Shown one piece after another: positions 31,030 to 52,912 of a stretch of 64,000 nt of DNA. The stretch is from assembly GCA_025936825.1 (NCBI GenBank), contig JAICSO010000002.1, positions 186,001-250,000 of the forward strand, read 5' to 3'. The number at the start of each line of letters is the position of its first letter. The first letter of the stretch is position 1. The notes below the pieces were generated by a model. It was not told the origin of the DNA. It searched no databases and saw nothing but the letters and a program-made list of their open reading frames with translations. Position numbers and translations under genes: made by a program. This DNA comes from Terriglobales bacterium (lineage in GTDB: Bacteria > Acidobacteriota > Terriglobia > Terriglobales > Acidobacteriaceae).

Positions 31030-31074
31030 AATGCAGAGCGCAATCGTGAGATGTTGAATCCAAAGTACTTACGA

Positions 31075-31155
31075 GCTGCTAGCGGTGAGCCGCGAGCAAT
31101 GAGCAAGCCAAATCAGGCTTGCTCGTCGCTCACAGCTCACTGCTCGCGGCTTAAA
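31075..31155. repeat. Heptamer tract D: inverted pair forming a hairpin in the dnaK leader
   Basis: The left arm has AGC-GAG-type units (GGTGAGC, CGCGAGC, AATGAGC) ending GAGCAAGCC. A 6-nt loop region (AAATCA) and the right arm GGCTTGCTC then TCGCTCA, CAGCTCA, CTGCTCG follow. The inner 9 bp pair perfectly and outer units pair in several registers. It lies 35 bp before dnaK. Confidence 0.75.
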
Positions 31156-31189: not shown

Positions 31190-33127
<1,938 letters not shown>

Positions 33128-33155
33128 GCTGTCAGCCGTCAGCCATCAGTCGTCA
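33128..33155. repeat. Heptamer tract E (4 units, GCCGTCA type) directly after the dnaK stop codon
   Basis: GCTGTCA, GCCGTCA, GCCATCA and GTCGTCA follow TAA 33125-33127 without a gap. Tract F before dnaJ carries the same family inverted. Confidence 0.85.
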
Positions 33156-33222
33156 GTCACAAAGGATGGCGCTAATTGCTGATGCAGGGGCAGCAGCAGT
33201 GGCGGTTCGGCGAACTTCTCGG

Positions 33223-33283
33223 CCACGGATTTACACGGATAAACACGGATCGAAGAATCCGTGACATCCGTGTTCATCCGTGG
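33223..33283. repeat. Palindromic CACGGAT repeat
   Basis: The left arm has three CACGGAT units about 10 bp apart (CCACGGATTTA, CACGGATAAA, CACGGAT); the right arm has ATCCGTG units ending CATCCGTGG. The arms are inverted around a short AT-rich centre. This is an intergenic repeat with a helical-turn period. Confidence 0.75.
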
Positions 33284-33378
33284 CTTTGAATTTGGAAGTT
33301 CGGGAGTGCACGGCTTCGGCTAGTGCCGAACGCGGCTTGATCAAGCCACGGCGTCGGCCATGCTGAAAATTACGGGAG

Positions 33379-33398
33379 GGCACGGCTTCAGCCGTGCC
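33379..33398. repeat. Hairpin repeat GGCACGGC-TTCA-GCCGTGCC
   Basis: A perfect 8-bp stem with a 4-nt loop. A related, partly degraded copy (GTGCACGGCTTCGGCTAGTG) lies at about 33306-33325. It immediately precedes the 56-aa gene. Confidence 0.75.
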
Positions 33399-33456
33399 GA
33401 AAGGAAATATCGAGCTGAGGGCCTTTAGGCCCTGGAGCAGTAAAGGGGTAGACAAA

Positions 33457-33627
33457 TTGCAGTTTCAAATTAAAGATCAGGAATATTTCTTAGCATTTGT
33501 GGAACAGGAGAAGCGCTGGTACGTTTTCGCGCCGACTCCTCAGGGAGTGCACCGCATCCCCGTGTACGTGGATGCGGTGAAGTGGGGAGCGCCGATGGTA
33601 CTGGAAGGTGAGACGCTCGCATCGTAA
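33457..33627 (+). CDS. Small 56-aa protein between dnaK and dnaJ
   Basis: TTG 33457 has an AAAGGGG ribosome binding site with 8-nt spacing, giving MQFQIKDQEYFLAFVEQEKR followed by WYVFAPTPQGVHRIPVYVD and a C-terminal GETLAS. It looks like a compact beta-sheet protein without a signal or Cys. No family is recognised. The longer frame to 33394 would translate a hairpin repeat and is rejected. Position between dnaK and dnaJ and between inverted heptamer tracts is suggestive, but no function can be assigned. Confidence 0.6.
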   Translation: MQFQIKDQEYFLAFVEQEKRWYVFAPTPQGVHRIPVYVDAVKWGAPMVLEGETLAS

Positions 33628-33677
33628 TTCGTTGATGCAATGGACAAGAACCTGTTATGACAAGATATAAACAAATT

Positions 33678-33705
33678 TGACTGATTGCTGAGTGCTGATT
33701 GCTGA
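33678..33705. repeat. Heptamer tract F (4 units, TTGCTGA type) just before dnaJ
   Basis: TGACTGA, TTGCTGA, GTGCTGA and TTGCTGA end 3 nt before the dnaJ ATG (33709), leaving no room for a normal ribosome binding site. The tract is inverted relative to tract E. Confidence 0.85.
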
Positions 33706-45513: not shown

Positions 45514-45520
45514 ACCCGGG

Positions 45521-45541
45521 CATCAGGCGTCAGGCTTCAGG
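45521..45541. repeat. Heptamer tract H (3 units, CGTCAGG type), left flank of four-helix-bundle gene 1
   Basis: CATCAGG, CGTCAGG, CTTCAGG begin 7 bp after the regulator's stop codon. The tract is inverted relative to tract I on the other side of the four-helix-bundle gene (18 of 19 bp agree). Confidence 0.8.
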
Positions 45542-45572: not shown

Positions 45573-45959
45573 CTAAGCAGCGTTTGCTGTCTCCGTCTTT
45601 GAATCTCTGTTGAGAGACCGGATCAAACCGTTGAGCATTTTTCCAGCTTCGCCGGCCTGCGACCGAATGTTTCTCGTGTCACTCGGCGAGATATACCCTA
45701 GCTTTTCGGCAATGTCGATTTGACTTTCGATTTCGAAAAGTGATCCGCGAGCGTTTCCGAAAAAGCGCAGGGAGTCTCTGTCGGATATCCGGCCTTTTCC
45801 CTCAGCTATGTCGCTCATGACCGAGACCGCTGCGCGACGCAGTTGGCTCGTCAGTGCAAAAAGCTCGTCTCTCGGAAAACCCCGAGTCGCGGCATAGACG
45901 GAAATAGTTAACTCAAAAGCCTTCTGCCAACATTTCAAGTCTCGAAACGTTCCGCCCAT
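45573..45959 (-). CDS. Four-helix-bundle protein (S23/IVP, Avd-like), copy 1
   Basis: From ATG 45959 the protein has 128 residues of the small four-helix family first found as intervening-sequence (IVS) ORFs in 23S rRNA. Hallmarks: FRDLKCWQKAFELTISVY, FPRDELFALTSQLRRAAVSV, DIAEGKGRISDRDSLRFFGNARGSLFEIESQI. It is a pentamer-forming, nucleic-acid-binding type fold in related Avd proteins. No reverse transcriptase or variable repeat is nearby. It is enclosed by inverted heptamer tracts H and I, as copy 2 is by K and L. Confidence 0.9.
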   Translation of the reverse strand: MGGTFRDLKCWQKAFELTISVYAATRGFPRDELFALTSQLRRAAVSVMSDIAEGKGRISDRDSLRFFGNARGSLFEIESQIDIAEKLGYISPSDTRNIRSQAGEAGKMLNGLIRSLNRDSKTETANAA

Positions 45960-47790: not shown

Positions 47791-47896
47791 AGCCCGATTC
47801 ACCACGACTGTAGGGCTGTTGTCCGGGGGACAATTGCAGGTCAATTGGTCTTTGTAGAGAGTTCTTCAGCAGCTGCTAAGCGGCGAAAGAATAAAG

Positions 47897-47947
47897 CCCA
47901 GGGCGTAAGCCCTGGGTCGGTGACGGTGCAAGAAGCCCCGAAGGGGC
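47897..47947. repeat. Two adjacent intergenic hairpin repeats
   Basis: CCCAGGGC-GTAA-GCCCTGGG (47897-47916) and GCCCC-GAA-GGGGC (47935-47947) lie between mlaF and the convergent hypothetical gene. Both are perfect short stems. The second is close to the gene end and might terminate one transcript, but no clear T-run follows. Confidence 0.7.
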
Positions 47948-50946: not shown

Positions 50947-50995
50947 TGGATCCTCAATTTCAGGTATTGCTTTTGAAGCTAGCACGAAAGGACAG

Positions 50996-51044
50996 CTTCT
51001 AGCTACTAGCTCCTAGCTGCGAGCGATGAGCGGTGAGCTGTGAG
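50996..51044. repeat. Heptamer tract K (7 units), left flank of four-helix-bundle gene 2
   Basis: CTTCTAG, CTACTAG, CTCCTAG, CTGCGAG, CGATGAG, CGGTGAG, CTGTGAG. The 18-bp stretch 51021-51038 recurs inverted at 51486-51503 (tract L) with one mismatch. Confidence 0.9.
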
Positions 51045-51089
51045 CAACCTTCTAAAGCATAGTTCCGGGGCAGACTCGGCCGTACAAAA

Positions 51090-51452
51090 TCACGCTTTGG
51101 CCGCTTGAAATTTCCGCATCAGCGCCGTGAGCATGCGCTGCAATTCGTCAGCAGAATGTGACAAGTTCCGAAATTCCTGCTCGCGTATGAAGTGCGGATC
51201 CCGTGCCAATAACGCGTGATACTCCAGTTCCGCGGCGGAACCACGAGCGATCTGCAGGAAACGGACCATCTCTCCGTCAGATCGTCTGCCGCAACCTTCC
51301 GCAATATTCGCCCCAATGGATGCAGCAGAGCGCCTCATCTGGCTTGTCAAACCGAACAGCTCTTCGCGCGGAAAATTGCGAGTCGCAGCATACACACCCA
51401 AAGTCAACTCATGCGCCTTCTGCCAGACTTGTAGTTCTTTGAAGCTTTTCAC
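51090..51452 (-). CDS. Four-helix-bundle protein (S23/IVP, Avd-like), copy 2
   Basis: GTG 51452 (AAGGAGG upstream) gives 120 residues: MKSFKELQVWQKAHELTLGV, FPREELFGLTSQMRRSAASI, NIAEGCGRRSDGEMVRFLQI. It is clearly homologous to copy 1 at 45573 but divergent (about half identical by eye), so it is not a recent duplication. It is enclosed by inverted heptamer tracts K and L. A function in nucleic-acid binding or as part of a mobile element is inferred only from family and context. Confidence 0.92.
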   Translation of the reverse strand: MKSFKELQVWQKAHELTLGVYAATRNFPREELFGLTSQMRRSAASIGANIAEGCGRRSDGEMVRFLQIARGSAAELEYHALLARDPHFIREQEFRNLSHSADELQRMLTALMRKFQAAKA

Positions 51453-51484
51453 AGATCCTCCTTGCACGACAACGCCTGGTCCGT

Positions 51485-51512
51485 GGCTCACCGCTCATTG
51501 CTCGCCGCTCAC
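51485..51512. repeat. Heptamer tract L (4 units), right flank of four-helix-bundle gene 2, containing the dprA stop
   Basis: GGCTCAC, CGCTCAT, TGCTCGC, CGCTCAC on the plus strand. The dprA stop codon (51509-51511) is inside the last unit. Confidence 0.9.
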
Positions 51513-52770: not shown

Positions 52771-52798
52771 AGCAGTGAGCGGAGGGCAGTGAGCAGCG
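52771..52798. repeat. Heptamer tract M (4 units, AGCAGTG type), inverted partner of tract N
   Basis: AGCAGTG, AGCGGAG, GGCAGTG, AGCAGCG. It lies in the dprA-mqnA divergent gap and faces tract N 79 bp away. Confidence 0.8.
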
Positions 52799-52877
52799 AG
52801 CAGACGGACGCGTTTTAGCTTGCAACTCGCTGTAAACAGAACAACTCGTGCGCAGATCGCAAGGGAGCACAGCGGTT

Positions 52878-52912
52878 TGCTCGCAGCTCATAGCTCTCTG
52901 CTCACAGCTCAA
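52878..52912. repeat. Heptamer tract N (5 units, AGCTCAT type), overlapping the mqnA start
   Basis: TGCTCGC, AGCTCAT, AGCTCTC, TGCTCAC, AGCTCAA; the last A is the first base of the mqnA ATG (52912). No Shine-Dalgarno can precede mqnA. Confidence 0.85.

Follow-up and report, generated by a model that had tools for sequence, protein, structure and literature searches.

Inverted heptad arms suggest that a four-helix-bundle gene is the protein-coding version of a little-recognised but widespread class of very small mobile DNA hairpins

Two bracketed genes in one window

Between dprA and topA, in the 64-kb stretch of DNA analysed here (the window), lies a small gene for a four-helix-bundle protein, enclosed by two inverted arms built of 7-nt repeats. 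This gene, copy 2, has a family member with arms of its own in the same window (copy 1), and similar repeats also form hairpins and a weaker bracket from which the gene is absent. The features are as follows, with arms, hairpins and the weaker bracket given without strand:

51090–51452, minus strand: copy 2 four-helix-bundle gene (TIGR02436 / PF05635 23S_rRNA_IVP), 120 aa, likely GTG start after AAGGAGG
51486–51510: copy 2 5′ arm (gene orientation), period 7, unit AGCRRTG, 3–4 heptads, adjoining the 3′ end of dprA
50994–51045: copy 2 3′ arm, period 7, about seven units, paired core 51015–51038, adjoining topA
45573–45959, minus strand: copy 1 four-helix-bundle gene, same family as copy 2, 119 bits
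46055–46105: copy 1 5′ arm, unit CAGGCGT, about seven units
45519–45541: copy 1 3′ arm, unit CAGGCNT, about three units
31074–31151: gene-less hairpin upstream of dnaK, with copy 2's own unit (AGCRNTG), single-stranded DNA fold z −5.4
52771–52909: gene-less hairpin upstream of dprA, with copy 2's unit and a 74-bp spacer
33117–33703: weaker inverted heptad bracket, dnaK–dnaJ intergenic, unit CAGCCAT/CAGCAAT, four-helix-bundle gene absent

The start codon of copy 2 is likely the GTG at 51452, which is preceded by AAGGAGG. In profile searches the encoded protein scored 133.1 bits against TIGR02436 (cut-off 24) and 136.7 bits in a second test of the TIGR02436 / PF05635 family (cut-off 33.8), in agreement with the preliminary description of a TIGR02436-type four-helix-bundle gene. 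The nearest solved structure is 2gsc (Xcc0516; E 5.7e-20), which secondary accounts describe as five four-helix bundles arranged in a ring (Lin 2006, cited in PMC4990558 and PMC3936711). The protein is under purifying selection (pN.18–.40, pS.73–.95).

The 18-bp inverted arms reported earlier are present at 51021–51038 (GAGCGATGAGCGGTGAGC) and 51486–51503 (reverse complement GAGCAATGAGCGGTGAGC), with a single mismatch. The full pair comprises 24 nt (51015–51038 / 51486–51509; 92% complementary) and is the sole inverted repeat detected within 1.5 kb. On the topA side the tract is longer than first stated, reading AGCTTCT.AGCTACT.AGCTCCT.AGCTGCG.AGCGATG.AGCGGTG.AGCTGTG.AGC from 50994 to 51045. 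The arms of copy 2 score 20, against a median of 11 and a maximum of 16 in 143 shifted control windows in relatives, and the earlier judgement that chance is unlikely holds. Copies 1 and 2 have, as had been noted, a common layout with different heptamer units (CAGGCGT vs AGCRRTG).

Both gene-less hairpins of the window fold strongly as single strands, and neither matches an Rfam family. The dnaK–dnaJ bracket is a possible derivative of the element; a four-helix-bundle remnant was looked for inside it and none was found. Its interior holds a 77-aa ORF without a Pfam match, plus REP-like palindromes. An Acido-Lenti-1 sRNA (RF01687, 47.5 bits) lies at 47871–47916 on the minus strand.

Distribution of the brackets

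The source genome (6.5 Mb), acidobacterial to judge from its relatives, encodes eight members of the family, all eight within inverted tracts of period 7 (period 8 in one case) and each with a private unit: AGCRRTG, CAGCCAT, CAGGTYT, CTAGTGG, GGTTRTT, CAGGCGT, TTGAGTCA and CAGATTG. Among relatives (78 loci, 41 related genomes) the median arm score is 21, against 11 in control windows made by shifting the flanks by 750 bp, whose maximum was 16; brackets were found at about 90% of the 70+ loci. A wider scan of many phyla, with one genome per species and many MAGs, yielded 80 loci. It covered Acidobacteriota, Proteobacteria, Planctomycetota, Bacteroidota, Chlorobiota, Chloroflexota, Cyanobacteria, Verrucomicrobiota/Lentisphaerota, Nitrospirota, Synergistota, Firmicutes, Fibrobacterota, Omnitrophota and one archaeal MAG. 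Scores of 16 or more were reached in 91% of 79 loci and in 2% of controls, and period 7 scored best in 68 of the 79. A further 48 loci came partly from the phylum and partly from six genomes belonging to other groups, a few being shared with the earlier sets; brackets were present at 46 of them, against 5 of 96 controls. Plasmid-borne members (cyanobacteria, Gemmatimonadota, Azospirillum, Riemerella) were bracketed in 11 of 12 cases. As a positive control, the RAYT genes of the same genomes scored for their known REP brackets, without period 7. No close relative of the protein was found in the phage collection searched.

Inverted periodic repeats in the flanks of other family members, which the preliminary description had put forward as the decisive comparison, are therefore present in all three sets (8/8, 91% of 79, 46/48). 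The functional link that it suggested between protein and repeats is strongly supported through co-occurrence across genomes, and the bracket association is confirmed far more widely than first reported. The clade-tied core and its polarity, the dispersed gene-less hairpins and the membership of 23S intervening sequences (IVS), set out below, go beyond that description.

Anatomy of the arms

EM alignment gave a unit consensus of YYAGYNN in relatives (G 96%, A 78%) and of YAGTNNN in other phyla, where the AGT form may be over-represented because a single clade seeded the wide scan. The core is directed from the outside towards the gene at both ends in 38 of 41 and 66 of 69 loci (104/110 together). 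Most arms have four or five units, with tracts ranging from 3 to over 30. A second protein clade (clade B), with statistics from fewer than 20 loci, has a different core, AAT/ATY, every 7–8 nt and often with period 8. Since the FastTree tree carries no printed supports, only the deep split between clades A and B is relied upon here.

Outside the core the unit is unconstrained: it varies among loci, and is common to both arms of one locus. The arm match is 21 within a locus vs 9 between any two loci, and 20 vs 13.5 when the comparison is with loci at the same genomic site (p 1e-5); part of the same-site match could reflect vertical inheritance plus slippage. A G-U asymmetry test for selection on the arms as an RNA stem gave no signal: differences between arms that are G-U compatible on the sense strand were not in excess (224 vs 203, p.33). 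This favours DNA hairpins over RNA stems.

Dispersed hairpins and re-used sites

Across 464 kb of the genome there are some 40 tracts of period 7 or 8, where shuffled sequence is expected to give none. The same 464 kb hold 30 inverted pairs, two of which are the gene-bearing copies of the window; most of the pairs have spacers of 12–120 bp and no gene. AG, counted by a simple AG/CT rule, points inwards in 23 cases vs 3. With the same arms as the coding copies, the gene-less hairpins would be non-autonomous derivatives of the element.

Two genomes that lack the gene (G024 and G019) have no tract in 68–100 kb, and a third (G020) also lacks it, yet has three tracts in 51 kb. A simple dose relation, with tract density following gene copy number, was not supported, as G014 has nine genes and no tract in 100 kb; nor was the idea of one gene copy per dispersed unit family, since an exact unit can be abundant where no gene copy matches it (CAGTTCT in G013, CAGCCAT in G025). 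In G013, CAGTTCTCAGTTCTCAG was counted 57 times, spread over about 24 sites, and its unit is absent from all gene copies of that genome. The wobble, unit-match and dose negatives limit the mechanism and leave the association intact.

Comparison of individual sites among relatives revealed several states. At the topA site, several relatives carry the gene and arms with units of their own, in one the arms enclose a 24-aa remnant, and others are without the element. Between nuoE and nuoF, gene-less hairpins with differing units occur in the source genome and at least eight relatives, and the gene is present elsewhere in the nuo operon in some relatives. The prfA site ranges from the gene with arms, through a hairpin lacking the gene and a lone arm, to an empty state, and in one further case it holds a REPIN. 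In the last case (G003, locus L413) a REPIN-like pair (GTAGAGACGTAAC...) occupies the intergenic spot where relatives hold a heptad element, a spot used by two kinds of miniature element. Gene and arms are inverted relative to the flanks between relatives at site S4, and distantly related proteins occupy one and the same site in two instances (L099 at S2, L097 at S6). On cyanobacterial plasmids the element lies between cas10 and cmr3, cas6 and cas4, and nrdB and nrdA. These comparisons of sequence suggest that gene and arms may be mobile as one unit, of about 450–550 bp in all. The element encodes no catalytic domain.

Intervening sequences of 23S rRNA genes

In Azospirillum lipoferum 4B, 473 bp of arms plus gene occupy helix 45 of one 23S gene, whereas another 23S gene of the strain has GTGTGATCTTCGATCACGC, a 19-nt hairpin, at this position, with identical flanks. 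This is the one clean empty site, and no target-site duplication was found at it. The intact IVS and its ORF (L175, 2001–2330, on AZO_p2) lie in one of several rRNA operons, and the identity of the surrounding 23S gene was checked. The ORF is missing from the plasmid gene table.

With gene and heptad arms in helix 45 of Azospirillum, classical 23S IVS therefore belong to this class. IVS with an S23 / 23S_rRNA_IVP ORF (Leptospira, Coxiella, Azospirillum) are of the same family and have the ORF between terminal inverted repeats, as does the PF05635 ORF of copy 2. In Coxiella, GACAGAT heptamers precede the ORF (PMC4990558), and these contain the same core as the arms in general. The known 23S IVS are found within rRNA genes, and accounts of them treat them as fragmenting the rRNA, whereas an intergenic position is the rule for nearly all other copies, those of the window included: copy 2 sits between dprA and topA, outside 23S rRNA genes, and a search for rRNA across the 64-kb window found none. 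No descriptions of IVS were found that include the general heptad core, its polarity or dispersed gene-less forms.

Relation to known systems

Terminal inverted repeats are shared by copy 2 with insertion sequences and MITEs. The overall arrangement resembles that of the REPIN / RAYT system (PMC3116915), in which a gene likewise lies in inverted repeats and gene-less hairpins are dispersed extragenically, as are the 30, mostly gene-less, pairs counted here. The element differs in having no transposase, in having heptad tracts rather than GTAG palindromes, and in its many private units per genome.

The Avd protein of diversity-generating retroelements (DGRs) is a distant homologue (bAvd, PF22296), scoring 24–27 bits, below the cut-off of 40; scores against Avd NF033474 were 21.9 and 29.5 bits (cut-off 80). 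No reverse transcriptase is adjacent, as the only RVT_1 match of the genome lies on another contig (C12). The element thus differs from DGRs in being without a reverse transcriptase, and a template/variable repeat is not known here. DGR targets need a DNA hairpin or cruciform with variable stem sequence (PMC3240598), and the Avd system may, by analogy only, parallel the use of DNA hairpins by the element.

Reportedly, Elhai and colleagues have worked on small repeats in cyanobacterial heptamers. Heptameric repeats in Xanthomonas and Nostoc (PMC4692102), like the STRRs of cyanobacteria, have period 7, are intergenic with about four units, are sometimes inverted, and have no assigned function. 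That paper proposes G-quadruplexes and, in the parts consulted, draws no link to the protein family; the window units, unlike that proposal, are without G-tracts. Genes for 23S_rRNA_IVP also occur in cas loci (PMC3936711). A search confined to an open library of papers found none joining IVS, Coxiella heptamers, heptamer repeats and cas-locus genes.

Proposed mechanism and alternatives

We read the gene and its two arms as a mobile hairpin element of miniature size, with a TIGR02436 gene as its sole gene and a protein that reads the heptad core at both ends, and we put the probability of this at roughly two in three. The reading builds on the architecture, polarity, phylogenetic breadth, site re-use, inversion, gene-less derivatives and empty site observed above; the binding of protein to heptads, a DNA rather than RNA form and the mode of movement are what we infer from them. 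Each end, mostly of 4–5 heptads with an inward YAG core (AAT/ATY in the second clade), would be recognised by a homopentameric ring protein, which may make one contact with the core of each heptad in both arms; its substrate would probably be a DNA hairpin that is either extruded or single-stranded. Movement of the hairpin to intergenic sites or existing stem-loops could then fall to a nuclease or polymerase, supplied by the host or acting in trans, and classical 23S IVS would be copies inserted into helix 45. If a ring protein read a 2–3-base core at fixed spacing, this would explain why core and spacing are conserved and the remainder is free.

The arms could instead work at the RNA level, as a transcript stem cut by RNase III as in 23S IVS so that insertions are tolerated, with a protein that binds RNA and mobility via RNA. 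The 23S members do require excision, RNase III cleaves at the first heptamer in Coxiella (PMC4990558), and copies are located inside operons (nuo, cas, nrd). However, the sense strand shows no G-U bias in the arm differences (224 vs 203), inversions with respect to the flanks ignore the transcribed strand, and reverse transcriptases, rejected as a partner on this ground, are uncorrelated with gene copy number; we regard an RNA-level element as unlikely, though not remote. The resident gene might also regulate itself, the arms being operators or terminators of a host gene and not ends of a mobile unit, in keeping with their position within tens of bp of a gene under purifying selection. Gene-less copies genome-wide, patchy presence, empty sites and site re-use make this improbable.

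An origin as REPINs of the RAYT (Y1 transposase) system with an acquired passenger gene would agree with the correlation between Y1 and four-helix-bundle gene copy numbers (rho 0.66 in 41 genomes, in-family 0.73). Yet RAYT genes are flanked by ordinary REP palindromes without period 7 in 18 of 19 cases, so that no cognate Y1 transposase carries the same repeats, and four relatives (G006, G025, G031, G034) have the gene but no Y1 match. RAYT was rejected as driver, the REP brackets being without heptads despite the correlation, and this origin is decidedly improbable. (RAYT loci L373–L392, in G000, G004, G008, G013 and G014, are bracketed by REP doublets.) Slightly less probable again is passive slippage at hairpins, by which tracts would grow, template switching would match the arms and the gene would be a hitchhiker. 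Tract lengths do vary greatly, from 3 to over 30 units, and heptamer repeats are over-represented in some bacteria (PMC4692102), but slippage predicts neither a fixed YAG core, 104/110 polarity and a clade-specific core, nor the presence of brackets around more than 90% of the members of a single gene family and not at shifted positions.

The miniature hairpin element thus remains the preferred reading. A broader claim, which we offer tentatively and with rather more doubt than conviction, is that it represents a new, near-universal class of transposase-less miniature elements, in which a pentamer reads the core of each heptad at both ends of a DNA hairpin and each locus has its private unit, and which has seeded genomes with heptameric repeats and has the 23S IVS as its members resident in rRNA genes.

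Significance

TIGR02436/PF05635 proteins are common and their structure is solved, without an assigned function. Separate pieces have been published already, and the inverted YAG heptads around the gene across bacteria join them. One observation ties together the protein family, the origin of 23S IVS and the excess of heptamer repeats seen in bacterial genomes, and the heptads offer a direct test of binding and mobility. Together, these findings suggest that tiny mobile DNA hairpins form a class that is widespread though little recognised, and that the gene with its arms is the coding form of this class.
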